DNA of 64,000 nt from Desulfovibrio piger ATCC 29098 (GTDB taxonomy: Bacteria; Desulfobacterota; Desulfovibrionia; Desulfovibrionales; Desulfovibrionaceae): contig NZ_DS996359.1 in NCBI RefSeq assembly GCF_000156375.1, forward strand, positions 117,065-181,064, in the 5' to 3' direction. Every line of letters starts with the position of its first letter. The stretch's first letter is position 1. Shown one piece after another: positions 29,443 through 38,792 of this stretch. Below the pieces are notes generated by a model that worked only from the letters and a program-made list of their open reading frames with translations, was not told the DNA's origin and did not search any database. The translations under genes were made by a program, and so were the position numbers.

Positions 29443-29665
29443 AACAAAAAAGTGAGGCCCCTCTGCCGGGGCCGCCATCTGCGGAACAAAATAAAGAAAA
29501 GCCCGGCAAATGGGAAGACGTGAACCGTCCGTGACAAAAAAATGCCGGTATGGCCGACAATATCGCGCTGACCGATGGCAGCCGCAGCACCCGGGACGGG
29601 GGGTCTTGCCCCGGATTCCGTTTCTGGCTAAAATCAGCGCCGCATTGCAACAAGGAGTTGGTTCC

Positions 29666-30067
29666 ATGGCTGATACGCGCATTCTTCTGGTGGATGACGA
29701 AAAGGAAGTGACGGCCCTGCTGGCCAAGCGTCTTGTACGGCGCGGCTACCAGTGTGCCACGGCGGCGGACGGCCAGCAGGCCGTGGACGCCATGCGCGAA
29801 CAGCCATTCCCCATCGTCGTCATGGACGTGAAGATGCCCAATATGGACGGCATCGCCGCCCTGAAAATCATCGTGGAGCAGTGGCCCACCGCCCAGGTGA
29901 TCCTGCTTTCCGGCCATGCGGACATGCAGCTTGCTGTGCAGGCCATGAGCGAAGGCGCTTTCGGCTACCTGATGAAACCTGTCGATTTTGATGAACTCCT
30001 GTTCAAAATCGAAGATGCCGCCATGCAGAGCCGGCTGGAAGGGCCGGAAAGCGACATGGCGCGATAG
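29666..30067 (+). CDS. Receiver-only response regulator
   Basis: This 133-aa protein is a CheY-like receiver domain with no output domain. The acidic pocket is seen in LLVDDEKE, the phosphorylated Asp in VVMDVKMPNMDG, and the conserved Thr/Ser and Lys in LLSGHAD and LMKPVDF. The ATG at 29666 has AAGGAG eight bases upstream. A DsbA-like gene follows after nine bases, so the two are probably co-transcribed. No cognate kinase is adjacent. Confidence 0.88.
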   Translation: MADTRILLVDDEKEVTALLAKRLVRRGYQCATAADGQQAVDAMREQPFPIVVMDVKMPNMDGIAALKIIVEQWPTAQVILLSGHADMQLAVQAMSEGAFGYLMKPVDFDELLFKIEDAAMQSRLEGPESDMAR

Positions 30068-30076
30068 GATCTTTGC

Positions 30077-30892
30077 ATGAAGAAACTGTTCCGTCCTCTG
30101 GTGCTGGGCGGTGTCCTTTTGCTGGCGGTGGGCCTGGCTCCCGTCATGGACACGACTCCCGCCCGTGCCGCCACCGTCACCGACGCCAACCTGAAGCAGA
30201 TGCTGGAGGATCTGCTGCGCGAACATCCCGAGATCGTCCTGGACGTGCTGCGCTCCCACAGCGAAGACGTGCTGGACATCGCCCAGGCGGGCGCCAATGC
30301 GCGCCGCAAGGCCGCTCTGGAAGCCCAGTGGCACAAGGAAGTGAAGAACACGCCGCAAAAGCAGATCTCGCTGGCTGGCCGCCCGGTCAAGGGCAATGCG
30401 GCGGCGCCGGTGCGCATCGTGGCCTTTTCGGACTTCACCTGCCACTATTGCCAGCAGGCCACCCATGTGCTGGACGAGATCATGAAGAAATACGGCAAGA
30501 ACGTCAGCCTGGTCTACAAGCACATGCCGCTGGACGAGCAGGGCCCGGGCATGCTGGCCGCCCGCTACTTCGTGGCTGTGGCCGCGCAGAGCGAGAGCAA
30601 GGCCTGGAAGTTCTATGATGCCATGTATGCCGACCGCGACCGCCTGCTGCTGGAAGGCCAGAAGTTCGTGGACGAGGTCTGCGACAAGCTGGGCCTGGAC
30701 AAGGCTCGTCTGCAAAAGGACGCCTCCAGTGACAAGACGGCCCGGATCATCGCCCAGGATCTGGATGATGCCAAAAAGCTGAAGATCGACGGCACGCCCT
30801 GCTTTTTGGTCAACGGCCTGATGGTGCGGGGCGCCCTGTCCGAGCCCCTGTTCGAAGCGGCCGTGGACACCGCTCTGGAAGCGGCGCGCTAG
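30077..30892 (+). CDS. DsbA/Com1-like periplasmic thiol-disulfide oxidoreductase
   Basis: This 271-aa protein has a cleavable signal peptide (LFRPLVLGGVLLLAVGLAP to about residue 32, ending ARAA). A helical region follows, then a thioredoxin-fold domain with the active site DFTCHYC and the cis-proline loop DGTPCF. It probably oxidises or isomerises disulfides of exported proteins. The N-terminal extension resembles the Com1/DsbA family in which a helical segment drives oligomerisation. A terminator follows directly. Confidence 0.88.
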   Translation: MKKLFRPLVLGGVLLLAVGLAPVMDTTPARAATVTDANLKQMLEDLLREHPEIVLDVLRSHSEDVLDIAQAGANARRKAALEAQWHKEVKNTPQKQISLAGRPVKGNAAAPVRIVAFSDFTCHYCQQATHVLDEIMKKYGKNVSLVYKHMPLDEQGPGMLAARYFVAVAAQSESKAWKFYDAMYADRDRLLLEGQKFVDEVCDKLGLDKARLQKDASSDKTARIIAQDLDDAKKLKIDGTPCFLVNGLMVRGALSEPLFEAAVDTALEAAR

Positions 30893-32397: not shown

Positions 32398-33960
32398 CTA
32401 GCGGGCGCTCAGTTCCTGACCGTCCCACACCTGTTCGGCCTTGGGCAGCACGGGCAGGAGCCGCGTCCAGGGATGCTGCTGCAGGAAATCGGCATCCTGC
32501 TGCAGCTTGCGGCTCATGTTCAGGATGGGCGGCACGATCTGCTTGATGTCCCCGGCCAGGGCGGGGCTGATGCTGTAACCGGTGGCCTGTTCGGCCAGGG
32601 CCACGGCCTTGTGGCTGAACTCCATGGAGCTCATGAGGGTGTCCAGGGCCTTGGCGGGGTTATGGAAGCCCACGCTGTTCTCGGCGGACACGTAGTCCCA
32701 GTAGAGCTGGCCCTTGCGGACCATCTCGCGGGCCTCGGCCATCAGGCTGTCATAGTTGGCGGCGCGCTGTTCGGCGGGCACCGCGTTGGCCAGGCGCACG
32801 GCCTCGTGGGCGCGCACGGATTCTTCCTGGGCCTTGAGCAGCTGCGTGAAGGTCTTTTCCTGGGTGTAGAGCACGCGGCCGCGCAGGTAATCGGCGGTCT
32901 TGTCGGCATGGCACTGGCGGCAGGCGCGCAGCTCGGGATCCTTGAGGGGCGAGGTCATCCAGTGGCTGGAGACCTTCTTGCCGTCCACGCGCTGGTAGGG
33001 CATGTGGCAGTCCGCGCAGGAGACGCCGGCGGCGCCGTGGGTGCCGTCGATGAAGGTCTCGTACTCGGGATGCTGCATCTTGATCATGGGCACCTTGGAG
33101 GCCGCATGCACCCAGTCGGTGAAGGGCGCGCTGCTGCCGTCGGCCTGCTTGGGACCGTGGCTCTTGTAGTATTCATACATGTCGCCGGGGCCGAAGCCAT
33201 TGTCCCAGGGGAAGACGGGACGGCCCGCGGGCCCGTTGTCCTTGTGGGTGAAGTAGTATTCCACATGGCACTGGGCGCAGACCAGGGTGCGCTTTTCGTT
33301 GCGGGAGAGCTTGTTCCAGTCCTTGCCGGAACGCTTCAGCCAGTCCTTGAGCGGTTCGGAGTAGGGGCGCAGCTCCATGGTGGCCGGATCGTGGCAGTTG
33401 CTGCAGCCGATGGTCTCGTCCATCTCGCTGATGGCGTCCTTGCCGCGGAAGGTGTTGACGTCCTTGCTCCAGAAGGCGTCACCGTACTTGCCGACCCATT
33501 CCATCATCTTGGGGGTCTTGCAGTTCCAGCAGGTGGCGGGCAGGCCGCCCTTTTCCCCGTAGCGGTTGATGCGGTCGATGTTGACGAAGTCCTTGACGGC
33601 ATAGGTATGGCCGCGGGCCTCGTTGTATTCGTACATGAAGGGATAGCCCAGCCAGAGGTTCTTCAGGTAGGGCTGGGCGTGCTTGTAGCCCTTGGGCAGG
33701 GGATTCACGTCGTCGTTCTTGTGGAACGGCACCGAACCCTTGTACTCGGTCATGACGGACGTCTCGTTGTTTTTCTGGTACGAGGCGTACTGATGCGGGA
33801 AGGCCTCCTTGTAGGCCGAGATGCGGGTCTCGCCCGCGGGCAGGCCGGTCTTGTATTCCGGGGCCTTCAGTTCGGTGTCCACGTCCTGGCAGCCGCCCAG
33901 CAGGGGCAGTGCCAGCAGGGCCGCGGCCGCAAGGGTGAGGCCGAAGAGTCGATTAGTCAT
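32398..33960 (-). CDS. nrfA: Pentaheme nitrite reductase catalytic subunit NrfA
   Basis: NrfA (520 aa) reduces nitrite to ammonium with six electrons in the periplasm. The five heme sites are CWNCK (the lysine-ligated catalytic heme), CSNCH, CAQCH, CADCH and CRQCH. The signal peptide ends in LLGGC at Cys24, so the enzyme is a lipoprotein, as known for desulfovibrios. The true start is the ATG at 33960, inside the last codons of nrfH; the open frame further upstream is a shadow of nrfH. AAGGA lies nine bases before the start. Confidence 0.96.
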   Translation of the reverse strand: MTNRLFGLTLAAAALLALPLLGGCQDVDTELKAPEYKTGLPAGETRISAYKEAFPHQYASYQKNNETSVMTEYKGSVPFHKNDDVNPLPKGYKHAQPYLKNLWLGYPFMYEYNEARGHTYAVKDFVNIDRINRYGEKGGLPATCWNCKTPKMMEWVGKYGDAFWSKDVNTFRGKDAISEMDETIGCSNCHDPATMELRPYSEPLKDWLKRSGKDWNKLSRNEKRTLVCAQCHVEYYFTHKDNGPAGRPVFPWDNGFGPGDMYEYYKSHGPKQADGSSAPFTDWVHAASKVPMIKMQHPEYETFIDGTHGAAGVSCADCHMPYQRVDGKKVSSHWMTSPLKDPELRACRQCHADKTADYLRGRVLYTQEKTFTQLLKAQEESVRAHEAVRLANAVPAEQRAANYDSLMAEAREMVRKGQLYWDYVSAENSVGFHNPAKALDTLMSSMEFSHKAVALAEQATGYSISPALAGDIKQIVPPILNMSRKLQQDADFLQQHPWTRLLPVLPKAEQVWDGQELSAR

Positions 33961-34420
33961 AAGCAACCGTCCTTGTGCTGATGGGCTTGTGGCGCATGTG
34001 GGCCATATTGCGGTGGCAGTCCACGCAATAGGGCTTGGCATCCATGCTGGCGACTTCGCTGTTGGTGGCAAAGTGGCAGGCCTTGCAGTTTTCGTTGACC
34101 ACGTCGCGGGTGCGCGCGCTGAGCGGGCGGGGGATGTCCTTGCCGGACACGTTGCCCATGAAGTCGCGCAGCCCTTCCTGTGCCTTGAACGGCAGCTTGG
34201 CCAGCAGGTTGTGCGGGGCGTGGCATTCGTTGCAGGCGAGCTTGGCATGCGTGGACAGCTTGTGCGTCACGGCGGCCTCCTGCATGATGTGGCAGCTGGC
34301 GCAGAACGGACGCTGGTCCGTCGAGACCATGGCAAAAGCCATCACGGCCAGCAGTGCCGCGCCCGCTGCCAGACCACCCAGAAAGACTTTGAGCCAGGGT
34401 CCTGTGCGGGGTGTACCCAT
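33953..34420 (-). CDS. nrfH: Tetraheme quinol dehydrogenase subunit NrfH
   Basis: NrfH (155 aa) anchors NrfA to the membrane and passes electrons from menaquinol. One membrane helix (about residues 9-30, VFLGGLAAGAALLAVMAFAM) is followed by four heme motifs: CASCH, CNECH, CKACH and CVDCH. It is a NapC/NirT family member. The ATG at 34420 has AAGGAGG five bases upstream. It overlaps nrfA by eight bases. A sigma-54 promoter sequence lies about 100 bases upstream. Confidence 0.96.
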   Translation of the reverse strand: MGTPRTGPWLKVFLGGLAAGAALLAVMAFAMVSTDQRPFCASCHIMQEAAVTHKLSTHAKLACNECHAPHNLLAKLPFKAQEGLRDFMGNVSGKDIPRPLSARTRDVVNENCKACHFATNSEVASMDAKPYCVDCHRNMAHMRHKPISTRTVAYD

Positions 34421-34521
34421 AAAGAGCCTCCTTCGTTGATATCGTCGCCTGTCCCGCACCAAGGGGCAGGTGTGACGATCTGAGCATGACGCCGGTCCCC
34501 TCCGGCGTTTGTTCCAAAAAG

Positions 34522-34537
34522 AGCAAGGGGCGTGCCA
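34522..34537 (-). promoter_or_regulatory. Sigma-54 promoter of nrfHA
   Basis: On the - strand the sequence reads TGGCACG, CCCC, TTGCT, a full match to the sigma-54 -24/-12 consensus with correct spacing. It points at nrfH, and a sigma-54 activator gene is two genes away on the other side. Confidence 0.85.
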
Positions 34538-34546
34538 GTCTGGACG

Positions 34547-34566
34547 AATGTGAGCATATTCACATT
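34547..34566. promoter_or_regulatory. CRP/FNR-type palindrome in the nrfH-kinase gap
   Basis: AATGTGA, six bases, TCACATT is a perfect inverted repeat of the TGTGA-N6-TCACA type bound by CRP/FNR-superfamily regulators. It lies just upstream of the sigma-54 promoter and about 170 bases before the kinase gene. Confidence 0.5.
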
Positions 34567-34648
34567 TTTCCTTGTCTTATCAGTGTATTATTGAATGAGT
34601 CGTCGTTATGGCCCTGGCGGGGCTCTTGTGATTTTCAGAAAAAAAAGA

Positions 34649-34668
34649 CAGATTTTCCGAAAAATCTG
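34649..34668. promoter_or_regulatory. Candidate enhancer for the sigma-54 activator
   Basis: CAGATTTT, CCGA, AAAATCTG is a perfect 8-4-8 palindrome about 145 bases upstream of the expected nrfHA transcription start. That is a usual distance for an NtrC-type activator site. Confidence 0.5.
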
Positions 34669-34733
34669 ACAACTCCGGCCCTGTTTTCGCCGCCGGGAAC
34701 ACCGGCGTGTCCGGACGGGCCGACGGAGGAAGC

Positions 34734-37073
34734 ATGTCCGACCCCGTGCGAGTCCCGCCCTCCGGCGGGCCCGGGCACTGGCGGCGCTGGCTGTTGCCCG
34801 TGCTGGCCAGTGTCGCCTGGCTGGTCCTGACCTTTTTCCTGTACCGCCATGCCGTGCAGGGCGAGCAGGCCCACCTGCTGGAACTTTGCCATACCCGGCT
34901 GGCGGCCACGGCCCATCAACTCATGGATGCCCGTGACTGGAACGCGGGCCATGGCGGCGTCTATGTGCCCCTGAGCGCTTATGGCGAGCCCAATCCCTGG
35001 CTGCCGGAAAAGGACAGGACCCTGCAGACCGCCGACGGGCGGACGCTGGTGCTCATGAACCCCGCCTACATGAGCCGCCAGATGGCCGAACGCCTCACCG
35101 AGCCCGGTTTCCGTCTGGCCATCGTGGGCCAGGATCCCCTGCGTCCGGGCAACCGGGCCGACGACTGGGAACGGCGGATACTGGCCACGGCCACGCAGGG
35201 CGGGCAGGTCTTCTTCAGCGGGGAGGATTGTCTGCCGCAGGGCCGCCTGCGCCTGCTCAGGACGCTGGCCGCACAGGAAAGCTGCCTGCGCTGTCATCAG
35301 AGCCACAGGGAAGGGGACATGCTGGGCGGCATCAGCATCAGCATGGATGCCGCCGCCTATGTGCACGATCTGGAGCGGAAGCAGCGTGAGCTGGGCCTGC
35401 TCTATGGCCTGCTGGCCCTGACCGGGGTGCTGGCCGTGGGCGGCATCACCAGCAACCTGACCCTGCGGCGCCTGCAGGCCGAAGAGAAGAGCCGCCTCAA
35501 GAGCGCCTTCATGGGGCGCCTCAGCCACGACATGCGTACCCCGCTGGCGGCCATGCTGGGCATGAGCGATCTGCTCGACCGCCGGGACTGCGGGCCGGAG
35601 CAGCGGCATACGGCCCTGTCCTATCTGCGCCGGGCCTGCGGGGCCCTGCTGGAGATGGTGGACGACATCACCGACCACGCCTCGCTGGAGCAGGGAGAAG
35701 TGCGCCTGCGCTGCCGGACCTTCGATCTGCCCGCCTGTTTGCGGGCCTGTGCCGACCTGTACAGACCGGCGGCGGAGGCCAAGGGGCTGGAGCTGCAGCT
35801 GCATCTGGCGCCGCAGCTGCCCCGGCAGGTCTCCGGGGACAGCTTCCGCCTGCGGCAGGCCCTGGGCAATCTGGTGAGCAATGCCGTCAAATTCACGGAA
35901 CAGGGCCGCATAGACGTGACGGCGGGCGGGGAGCGTCTGGCCTCCGGTGTCTTCCTGTTGCGGTTGGACGTCCGGGACAGCGGGCCCGGGCTGGAGCCCG
36001 GCGAGGAAAAGGCGGTCTTTGAGAGCTTTCACCGGGGCAGTGCCGCCGGCGGCAAGCCGGGCACCGGTCTGGGCCTGAACATCGTGCGCACCATCGCCCG
36101 CCGTATGGGCGGAGACGTGCTGGTGCGCTCCTGCCCCGGACAGGGTTGCACGTTCACGCTGGAAGTACGGCTGGCGATGGCGGCCGGCGGCCCCGGGGCG
36201 AAGTCCGGGACTCCGTGCCCGGCGGAAAAGGACGCCGAGGCTCCGGCCCCTGCGGCGGGCCCCTTGCAGGGCCTGCGCGTGCTGGTGGCCGAGGATGACG
36301 CCGCGGGCCGTTATCTGCTCGAGGTGCGCTTGCGGGAACAGGGCTGCACCGTGGGGCTGGCCGCTGACGGGGAACAGGTGCTGGACATGCTGGCCGCCCC
36401 GTGGGACGTCATCCTGCTGGATGCCGGCATGCCCCGCATGGACGGCCTGACCGTGCTGGAGCGCGTCCGTGCCGGACGGAGCGCCGCGCCCCGGCAGCAG
36501 GCGGTGATCGTCCATTCCGCCGGTCTGTCCCCTGATGAGGAGGCGCACTTCCGCTCCTTGGGAGTGCGGGCCCTGCTGGACAAGCCGGTGCCCCCGGCCA
36601 TGTTGCTGGCTGCGTTGCGGGATGTGCCCCGCGGCAGCTCCGGCGGCGGGCAGCAGGAGCCGCCGGTGCCCTGTGGCGCGGAGGAGACCGCTCCCGTCAT
36701 CTGGGACAGGGCGGCCGCGCTGGCGGCCACGGAGCAGGACGAAGAGCTGTTGCGTACCTTGGTCACGGCCTTGCGGGACGACTTGCCGCGGCTGCAAGCG
36801 GGCCTGGAAGCTGCCCGGGAACTGGCCGCCGATCCCGCGGCCCCGGCGGCCCATACGGCGGAGGCCCTGCGCCGGGCGGCCCATGCCCTGAAGAATTCCG
36901 CGGCCACGCTCTGTTTTGAGGAGCTACGTCTCAGGGCGGCGGCCCTGGAACAGGCGGCACGGCAGGCGCCGGCGAGCACGCCGGAGAAGGCGGAAGAGCT
37001 GGCACCTTTGGCGGCGGCCTGTGCCGAGGCCCTGGCGCGTGCCGAAGAAGTCCTGCGGCGGGGAGACGTCTGA
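34734..37073 (+). CDS. Heme-binding hybrid histidine kinase
   Basis: This membrane sensor kinase (779 aa) has TM1 at about 20-37 and a periplasmic Tll0287/DUF3365-like sensor with a c-type heme motif CLRCH at 184-188. TM2 is at about 220-238. HisKA follows with the phospho-His at 265 (LSHDMRTPL), then HATPase (NLVSNAVKF, DSGPGL, GTGLGL). A receiver has Asp563 (LLDAGMP), and a C-terminal Hpt domain has His717 (AHALKNS). ATG at 34734 has GGAGGA upstream. Divergent from nrfHA and followed by a sigma-54 response regulator, it is probably a nitrite or redox sensor for that operon. Confidence 0.92.
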   Translation: MSDPVRVPPSGGPGHWRRWLLPVLASVAWLVLTFFLYRHAVQGEQAHLLELCHTRLAATAHQLMDARDWNAGHGGVYVPLSAYGEPNPWLPEKDRTLQTADGRTLVLMNPAYMSRQMAERLTEPGFRLAIVGQDPLRPGNRADDWERRILATATQGGQVFFSGEDCLPQGRLRLLRTLAAQESCLRCHQSHREGDMLGGISISMDAAAYVHDLERKQRELGLLYGLLALTGVLAVGGITSNLTLRRLQAEEKSRLKSAFMGRLSHDMRTPLAAMLGMSDLLDRRDCGPEQRHTALSYLRRACGALLEMVDDITDHASLEQGEVRLRCRTFDLPACLRACADLYRPAAEAKGLELQLHLAPQLPRQVSGDSFRLRQALGNLVSNAVKFTEQGRIDVTAGGERLASGVFLLRLDVRDSGPGLEPGEEKAVFESFHRGSAAGGKPGTGLGLNIVRTIARRMGGDVLVRSCPGQGCTFTLEVRLAMAAGGPGAKSGTPCPAEKDAEAPAPAAGPLQGLRVLVAEDDAAGRYLLEVRLREQGCTVGLAADGEQVLDMLAAPWDVILLDAGMPRMDGLTVLERVRAGRSAAPRQQAVIVHSAGLSPDEEAHFRSLGVRALLDKPVPPAMLLAALRDVPRGSSGGGQQEPPVPCGAEETAPVIWDRAAALAATEQDEELLRTLVTALRDDLPRLQAGLEAARELAADPAAPAAHTAEALRRAAHALKNSAATLCFEELRLRAAALEQAARQAPASTPEKAEELAPLAAACAEALARAEEVLRRGDV

Positions 37074-37346
37074 TGCCGGTGTCTTTGCGGTGGACGCTCC
37101 CCCGTGCGGGAAGCGTGACGGGCAGGGAAAGGCTCCGGGCCGTACTGCCGCTTGCCGGGGGCGCTGGAGCGCGCACCAGCCGCAGGAAGGCCGACGGCAG
37201 CCAGAAATGCTTTTGTATTTGGCCCATCAGCCGGAGAGCGCAGGAAAAAGAGAACGATATGCCGGGCAGCAGGCGCGCCCCTGTGCCGTGCCCGGGAATG
37301 GCCACAGGGGAGGCTCCGGGACACAGGCCCGGGCAGGGAGGCGAGG

Positions 37347-38792
37347 ATGGCCCGTGTGCTGGTAGTGGATGACGAGAACCTGATGCGCACCATGGTGGAG
37401 GTGGCCTGCCGCCGTCTGGGGCACGAGGCCCTGTGCGCGGCCACGCTGGCGGAAGGGCGGCGTCTGGCGGCCGCGGGCGTGGACGTCATCCTTCTGGACA
37501 TGCTTTTGCCCGACGGCAATGGTCTGGATGCGCAGCAGGAGCTGGCGGCCCTGCCCGATGCGCCGGACATCGTGGTCATCACGGGCCACGGCGACGGCGA
37601 TGCGGCGGAAAAGGCCCTGCGCGGCGGTGTCTGGGATTTCCTCATGAAGCCCGTGCGGGTGCGCGATGTGGAAGAGACCCTGAGCCATGTGCTGGAGGCC
37701 CGTGACAGACGGCGCTCGCGCCGGGGCCTGGAACTGGAGCCGGGGCAGGTGGCGGGGAGCGGCCCGGCCATGCAGGCGGCGCTGGCCCAGCTGGAACAGG
37801 CGGCGCACAGCGACGTCAATGTCCTGCTGCTGGGCGAGACCGGCGTGGGCAAGGAGCTGTTCGCCCGCACCCTGTACCGCAACAGCCACCGGGCCTCGCG
37901 GCCTTTCGTGGCCGTGGACTGCGCCTCGTTGCCGGAAACGCTGGTGGAGAGCCATCTGTTCGGCCATGCCCGGGGGGCCTTCACCGGTGCGGAGCGGGCC
38001 AGCGAGGGCCTGCTGCGGGCGGCGCATCAGGGCACGCTCTTCCTGGACGAGGTGGGCGACCTGCCGCAGGGCATACAGGGGGCTTTTTTGCGGGCGCTGG
38101 AATTGCGCCGCTTCCGTCCCGTGGGCGAGGTGCGCGAGGTGGAGAGCGATTTTCGCCTGGTGGCGGCCACCAATCAGGATCTGGAAGCCATGAGCGAGGA
38201 CGGGCGCTTCCGCAAGGATCTGCTCTACCGCCTGCAGGGCATGACCATCGTGATCCCGCCCCTGCGCCGGCGCCGGGACGAGATACCCCTGCTGGCACGG
38301 CAGGCGGTCATCCGCTGCTGTCGCCGCAACGGTATGGAGGAGAAGGAGCTTTCCCCCCTGTTGCTGGAGATGCTGGACGAATACGACTGGCCGGGCAATG
38401 TGCGCGAGCTGTTCCACACGCTGGAGCGGGCCTGTCTTGCGGCGGAACATGCGCCCCTGCTGCTGCCCGCGCACCTGACCACCGGCCTGCGTGTGGCTGT
38501 GGCCCGCAGCCGGGCCGGACAGGGACGCGGCACGGGCGACGGGCCCGGCGGCAGGGAGGCCTGCCTCCCGCTGGCCGATGCCGGGGCCCGGGCCTGTAGC
38601 GCGCCTGTCCTCCCCCCCATGCCGGAGGAGGGGCAGTCCTTCCCGTCATTGCGCAGCTGGCGGCATGAGGCGGAGCGGCACTACGTGGCCCAGGTACGGG
38701 CGCTGTGCGGCGATGATGCCCGGGCGGCGGCACGCATGGCCGGGGTCTCCCGCGGACACTGGTACGAACTGCTGAAAAAATACGGCTTCTAG
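37347..38792 (+). CDS. Sigma-54-dependent response regulator (NrfR-like)
   Basis: This NtrC-family activator (481 aa) has a receiver domain with Asp51 (VILLDMLLP), an AAA+ domain with Walker A GETGVGKE (163-170), the sigma-54-contacting loop GAFTGA (210-215) and an arginine-rich C-terminal part of the AAA domain. A variable Gly/Pro linker leads to a Fis-type HTH (AARMAGVSRGHWYELLKK). The start at 37347 follows GGAGGCGAGG. From memory, D. vulgaris has a similar regulator (NrfR) of nrfHA; the sigma-54 promoter before nrfH fits that. Confidence 0.93.
   Translation: MARVLVVDDENLMRTMVEVACRRLGHEALCAATLAEGRRLAAAGVDVILLDMLLPDGNGLDAQQELAALPDAPDIVVITGHGDGDAAEKALRGGVWDFLMKPVRVRDVEETLSHVLEARDRRRSRRGLELEPGQVAGSGPAMQAALAQLEQAAHSDVNVLLLGETGVGKELFARTLYRNSHRASRPFVAVDCASLPETLVESHLFGHARGAFTGAERASEGLLRAAHQGTLFLDEVGDLPQGIQGAFLRALELRRFRPVGEVREVESDFRLVAATNQDLEAMSEDGRFRKDLLYRLQGMTIVIPPLRRRRDEIPLLARQAVIRCCRRNGMEEKELSPLLLEMLDEYDWPGNVRELFHTLERACLAAEHAPLLLPAHLTTGLRVAVARSRAGQGRGTGDGPGGREACLPLADAGARACSAPVLPPMPEEGQSFPSLRSWRHEAERHYVAQVRALCGDDARAAARMAGVSRGHWYELLKKYGF

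Follow-up and report, generated by a model that had tools for sequence, protein, structure and literature searches.

A NrfSR-nrfHA nitrite-reduction switch in Desulfovibrio piger with a likely second input from HcpR

A stretch of 64,000 nucleotides from Desulfovibrio piger ATCC 29098 (hereafter, the window) contains a sigma-54 promoter, a kinase with a heme motif and a regulator with a GAFTGA loop, which together constitute the NrfSR-nrfHA circuit known from D. vulgaris. The core of that circuit is already known; the likely participation of HcpR and the family to which the sensor domain of NrfS belongs make this form of it worth testing. On balance we lean towards a Desulfovibrio NrfSR-nrfHA switch that would carry a second input, through HcpR. 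That reading draws on the conservation of the promoter (28 of 28 loci), of the enhancer repeat and of its distance from the promoter (22 of 22 each), on the published sites of NrfR and LurR, and on several lines of evidence concerning an HcpR-type site; counting against the HcpR input are the loss of that site from a close relative (L167) and its absence from 9 of the 19 NrfS(R)+ loci whose genomes encode HcpR. NrfHA protects sulfate reducers from nitrite, and from the HcpR-type site one would expect the regulons for NO defence and for nitrite reduction to be directly connected within Desulfovibrio, a link that was not found in the literature searched. The genus provides natural replicates for its study, with both inputs, one, or neither.

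The nrfHA genes face a divergent two-component system of the NrfS-NrfR type (Table 1), an arrangement that had been proposed in a first-pass annotation of this DNA and that was borne out by sequence and Pfam matches. Profile searches place nrfH in the NrfH/NapC families and nrfA in the cytochrome c552 families; nrfH scores 101 bits against TIGR03153 (NrfH), which is below that model's cut-off of 134, and its start is read as the ATG at 34420, with GGAGG directly upstream. The heme site and the intact GAFTGA loop that the same annotation had assigned to the kinase and the response regulator are both present, the former as CLRCH (a CxxCH motif) at 35283-35297 and the latter at 37974-37991. The C-terminus of NrfR displays a Fis-type helix-turn-helix, read by eye, and sequence comparison indicates that its C-terminal SRGHWYELLKKY is kept in relatives. 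Two further genes lie about 1.5 kb past the end of nrfA, at 29663-30892; the first encodes a stand-alone receiver-domain protein and the second a DsbA-like protein.

Table 1. Genes and regulatory features of the nrf region, in positions of the window.
Feature	Position	Strand	Basis or remark
nrfA, pentaheme cytochrome c nitrite reductase (Cytochrom_C552)	32398..33963	-	Pfam PF02335, 411 bits
nrfH, membrane cytochrome partner of nrfA	33953..34420	-	Pfam PF03264, 55 bits
Hairpin ACGCCGG-AGGGGA-CCGGCGT, nrfHA leader	34489..34508	-	3 nt after predicted start (about 34511)
Sigma-54 promoter TGGCACG-CCCC-TTGCT of nrfHA	34522..34537	-	exact match, conserved
HcpR-type site, TGTGAATATGCTCACA on minus strand, A and T flanks (wTGTGA-N6-TCACAw)	34549..34564		exact
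Candidate sigma-70 -10 hexamer TATTAT of nrfSR	34586..34591	+	22-27 nt after HcpR-type site
Predicted NrfR enhancer, direct 17-mers TGTCAGATTTTTCGGAA-AATC-TGTCTTTTTTTTCTGAA, 21 bp apart	34634..34671	-	conservation
8-4-8 palindrome CAGATTTT-CCGA-AAAATCTG	34649..34668		exact
nrfS, hybrid sensor kinase: Tll0287-like heme sensor, HisKA, HATPase, receiver, Hpt	34734..37073	+	Pfam
nrfR, receiver and sigma-54 activator	37347..38792	+	Pfam PF00158 208 bits, PF00072 68 bits

For comparison, NrfR was searched for in 199 genomes of the family and NrfH in 79 genomes of the genus, 63 of which gave a match (64 loci). Sorting by tblastn yielded 28 loci with NrfS beside nrfHA, comprising 22 from the genus (the window included) and six from outside it; L011 and L172, in which the fetched stretch ends before NrfR, were counted among these. 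A further 42 genus loci are without NrfSR, 41 of them usable and one (L208) too short and left out. The three nearest relatives of the window (L165, L166 and L167) display NrfH identities of 100, 100 and 99% and the same gene order, and L021 (Desulfovibrio sp. MES5) and L117 are one locus. The nrfS frame of L118 (genome G196) is broken just past CxxCH, through either a gene defect or a sequencing error, and genome G225 harbors two nrfH loci (L183 and L184), both without NrfSR and without an HcpR-type site.

The promoter aimed at nrfH, described in the first-pass annotation as a full-consensus sigma-54 element, is the sole exact match to TGGCACGNNNNTTGCW in the window (34537-34522). At two mismatches or fewer the sigma-54 pattern is matched 13 times in the window, against a mean of 16.1 in shuffled sequence, so that only exactness and conservation set this promoter apart. 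A box within two mismatches of TGGYAYG-N4-TTGHW was found in 28 of 28 NrfS(R)-nrfHA loci and one within a single mismatch in all 22 NrfS(R)+ loci of the genus, and the letters TGG.A......TTG are kept in 19 of 19 rows of an alignment of the region (A1). In scans that spanned 700 bp for NrfS(R)+ loci and 420 bp for loci without NrfSR, the best score among the 41 genus loci of the latter kind was two mismatches in 7 and three to five in 34. The accompanying statement that nrfHA is controlled by a sigma-54 regulator in D. vulgaris agrees with published work, the available portions of which report that nrfHA of that organism is activated by NrfR (DVU0621), which binds upstream of these genes (PMC3333781, PMC4641369, PMC6456213, PMC5701242). 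That NrfSR fires nrfHA through sigma-54 is well supported.

Also in the gap between enhancer and promoter is aTGTGAATATGCTCACAt (34549-34564), a match to wTGTGAnnnnnnTCACAw, the consensus that has been published for HcpR in Desulfovibrio (PMC1274295, in the text available). The features that had previously been described in this gap are real, and the account of it missed this site together with the class II -10 box and the leader hairpin. Perfect HcpR-type sites number three in the genome, a mirrored control giving none: the second lies upstream of hcp, with its end 70 nt from the ATG, and hcp is directly followed by a Crp-family gene (hcpR), and the third TGTGA-N6-TCACA (L224:5973-5988; contig C36:55973 of the same genome) lies at the start of a gene for a TauE/SafE-family exporter. 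Among the three HTH_Crp_2 proteins of the genome only the hcp-linked one possesses an RE...R helix, which is kept in 30 of 30 genus homologs examined, from 44 genomes with a homolog. The best 30 hcp loci were scanned for a site with at most one mismatch upstream of the gene; such a site was present in 18 of the 20 whose genomes encode HcpR versus 2 of the 10 whose genomes do not, and the motif is thereby tied to the regulator.

At nrfHA itself, an HcpR-type site is present within 300 bp in 29 of 63 genus loci (12 of them perfect), against a mean of 0.42 and a maximum of 3 under shuffling, and 0 and 2 for two control patterns. Across all loci the site accompanies nrfHA in 26 of 38 cases with HcpR versus 3 of 25 without, and among NrfSR-less loci in 16 of 19 with HcpR versus 1 of 22 without (Fisher 1.4e-7, kinship being ignored). 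On the NrfH tree the site changes 8 times, and a kinship-aware test of its association with HcpR, which affords four independent pairs on well-supported branches and so places significance out of reach, gave averages of 1.4 with HcpR and 0.1 against. Within the NrfS(R)+ loci the site is not associated with HcpR (10 of 19 with the regulator, 2 of 3 without). In the NrfSR-less loci L192 (G232), L195 (G162), L202 (G230) and L203 (G224), each of which has an HcpR-type site at nrfHA, an hcpR-like gene lies approximately 2.2-2.3 kb from nrfH and is convergent with nrfHA.

The uneven distribution of the site bears on a simpler account, in which the circuit is as plain as that of D. vulgaris, only NrfR and sigma-54 act, and the TGTGA motif is there as a relic or by chance. 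Consistent with that account, the site is found in L165 and L166 and lost in L167, is missing from 10 of the 22 NrfS(R)+ loci of the genus, and is not reported for D. desulfuricans ATCC 27774 in the available text of PMC5701242. However, the site in the window is perfect, carries the published flanks and is one of only three in the genome, the others being at hcp and at the TauE/SafE gene, and sites at nrfHA outnumber those in shuffles and control patterns as given above; we regard the plain circuit as doubtful.

Within the window, the favoured target of HcpR is nrfSR. The candidate -10 hexamer of nrfSR (Table 1) predicts a transcription start at about 34598, and TATTAT recurs with the same spacing toward nrfS in L165 and L166. 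The spacing corresponds to the class II position: when 20 hcp promoters are averaged, the -10 score is highest at an offset of 22 nt from the site. The single best hexamer, however, stands at that offset in only 11 of the 20, and TCTAGT, the hexamer at hcp in the genome of the window, is weak. A strong class II hexamer toward nrfS was found in only 3 of 12 site-bearing NrfS(R)+ loci, and those three are closely related.

The site might instead serve nrfHA directly, since only 11 nt separate it from the -24 box downstream, and HcpR occupying about -38 to -53 relative to the sigma-54 start would either block or assist the polymerase. In L192, L195 and L202 the -10 hexamer at class II distance does point to nrfH, and an hcpR-like gene is encoded about 2.3 kb from nrfH. 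Against this, the window, L165 and L166 have TATTAT toward nrfS and no -10-like hexamer at class II spacing toward nrfH, and direct action on nrfHA appears unlikely here. A different geometry was observed in L177-L181, L187, L188 and L190, where the HcpR-type site is located at about -90 to -110 of nrfH and in most loci a -10-like hexamer follows it at 15 nt instead of 22; a hexamer that is 7 nt nearer is not class II, and HcpR perhaps acts there as a repressor.

A different regulator, such as Rex, is very improbable as the owner of the TGTGA site. Rex is encoded in this genome, and according to the available portion of PMC5701242 it is said to bind sites identical to those of HcpR1 and has been raised for the nap and nrf loci; nevertheless, a Rex-type domain is encoded by 73 of the 79 genomes of the genus, and its distribution does not track that of the site, which occurs in only 1 of the 17 loci in Rex genomes among the 22 that have neither NrfSR nor HcpR.

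The unit that is conserved in the enhancer consists of two T-rich 17-mers in direct orientation, TGTC-N3-TTTTTC-N-GAA, spaced 19-21 bp apart. The pair scores at least 22 of 26 in all 22 NrfS(R)+ loci of the genus, the pattern having itself been derived from these loci, so that the window's own score is not independent; the six NrfS loci outside the genus score 17-21 (spacing 21-23), 40 loci without NrfSR score at most 19, and 200 shuffles of the window gave a mean of 14.2 and a maximum of 19. The letters GTC-N3-TTTTTC-N-GA match the LurR sites published as targets of NrfR, which are 16 bp long and of the GTC...GAC type, as in GTCCGCTTTTTCAGAC (PMC6456213, in the text available), save that the last base here is A and not C. 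The repeat stands 120-134 bp from the -24 box in 22 of 22 genus loci, those with long leaders included, which upholds the earlier proposal of an enhancer at a usual distance. A conserved repeat at a fixed distance argues that the enhancer is real and that the palindrome at 34649-34668, formed where 17-mer 1 overlaps with the beginning of 17-mer 2, results from two sites lying side by side.

That the palindrome itself is the NrfR enhancer unit, as had first been suggested, is barely credible: its symmetry is exact and the genome has no other exact copy (with three mismatches or fewer allowed, a match turns up in 6 of 100 shuffles), but all 8 pairs are formed in 1 of 28 loci, the window alone, with 7 of 8 in six loci (L118, L124, L126 and, contrary to its expected retention in close relatives of the same gene order, L165, L166 and L167) and 1-5 in the remaining 21, while the tandem repeat persists and the published NrfR/LurR sites are units of another type. 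With nrfSR starting where predicted, its leader would include the NrfR repeat, and NrfR may accordingly restrict expression of the operon that encodes it.

The sensor domain of NrfS matches sCache_heme (PF11845, DUF3365/Tll0287) with 48.2 bits against a curated cut-off of 24.1, a match that also exceeds the cut-off in 10 of 10 NrfS orthologs scanned. Its CxxCH motif is present in 28 of 28 loci, the 24 aligned proteins having been extracted by a filter that required CxxCH and the 4 left out having been checked and found to carry it also, and its Cache fold is closest to Tll0287. Judged by sequence, the domain is a member of the Tll0287/DUF3365 c-heme Cache family; the PF11845 match and CxxCH are in line with the earlier proposal of a heme-carrying sensor domain. 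NO binding has recently been measured in the sCache_heme family (PMC12889525, available text), with which NrfS shares the Pfam match, CxxCH, fold and fusion to a kinase. Whereas that text gives no target operon for the members it describes, NrfS has a known one, its heme and ligand being putative. The signal of NrfS is stated to be unresolved in the available part of PMC5701242, and its membership in an NO-binding family with a known target operon renders the question testable on one purified domain. We tentatively advance, as a possible extension, that nrfHA is an NO-response operon in which cytoplasmic HcpR would act on nrfSR and periplasmic NrfS would sense NO derived from nitrite and fire nrfHA by way of NrfR and sigma-54; two independent heme sensors in series would, if this is true, form a feed-forward gate and name the signal of NrfS.

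In the switch with an HcpR input that we favour, HcpR, a Crp/Fnr-family regulator of nitrosative stress, would bind at 34549-34564 and activate nrfSR at a class II, sigma-70 promoter with its -10 at 34586-34591. NrfS, as a periplasmic c-heme Cache kinase, would then detect NO or nitrite, and its phosphate would pass, as its family suggests, from HisKA to the receiver, to Hpt and to NrfR. NrfR on the tandem 17-mers would in turn drive sigma-54 polymerase at 34522-34537, such that nrfHA is made from an mRNA that begins with a possibly protective hairpin; this NrfR step was demonstrated by others in D. vulgaris, and the site architecture is shown here through conservation. Bound within the nrfSR leader, NrfR might also restrain its own operon.

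Several elements of this switch are shared with known systems, in each case as described in the available portions of the papers cited. D. vulgaris Hildenborough (DVU0621, DVU0624-0625) has the same divergent two-component system, GAFTGA regulator, sigma-54 promoter and NrfR sites (PMC3333781, PMC4641369, PMC6456213). Unlike that organism, D. piger has an HcpR-type site in the gap, and its genome yielded neither a NapA over the cut-off nor a second copy of the tandem NrfR 17-mers at three mismatches or fewer. In D. desulfuricans ATCC 27774, which encodes NrfSR, HcpR1 and HcpR2, NrfSR is likewise taken to drive nrfHA and HcpR1 binds TGTGA-N6-TCACA; however, the two regulators act there on separate promoters, an HcpR site at nrfHA is not reported in the available text, and hcpR1 and hcp are not neighbours (PMC5701242), whereas here hcpR adjoins hcp and a site lies in the nrf gap. 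HcpR was predicted to control nrfHA in the regulons of Geobacter and Desulfuromonas, but through a different motif, TTGAC-N4-GTCAA, and the Desulfovibrio list in the same text holds hcp, frdX, apsBA and sat, and not nrfHA (PMC1274295). At the Escherichia coli nrf promoter, a Crp/Fnr-family factor (FNR) and two-component regulators (NarL/NarP) similarly converge (PMC5434802, PMC12285233); there both act at one promoter, whereas here sigma-54 and an NtrC-type regulator are employed and the two inputs may act in series.

The leader hairpin of nrfHA may protect the nrfHA mRNA. The window and L165-L167 have a stem of 7 bp, and 14 other loci (13 distinct rows) have, in the same place, an 8-bp stem with an ATGGG-like loop; in a scan for stems of at least 6, the six loci outside the genus gave no such hairpin, bar an unlike one in L132. 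In rows that are related and were picked for having the hairpin, the window's stem with its other loop length being left out, pairing amounts to 89.4% of cells versus at most 68.3% when slid, the covariation score of 0.41 was reached by 0 of 500 shuffles, and 4 pairs are changed on both sides, a number that 52 of 500 shuffles reach. Elsewhere, the sigma-54 box of L117, L118, L124 and L172 lies 363-494 nt before nrfH, so that their nrfHA leaders are some hundreds of nucleotides longer than that of the window, and these long leaders contain strong hairpins of the GCCCTG...CAGGGC type.
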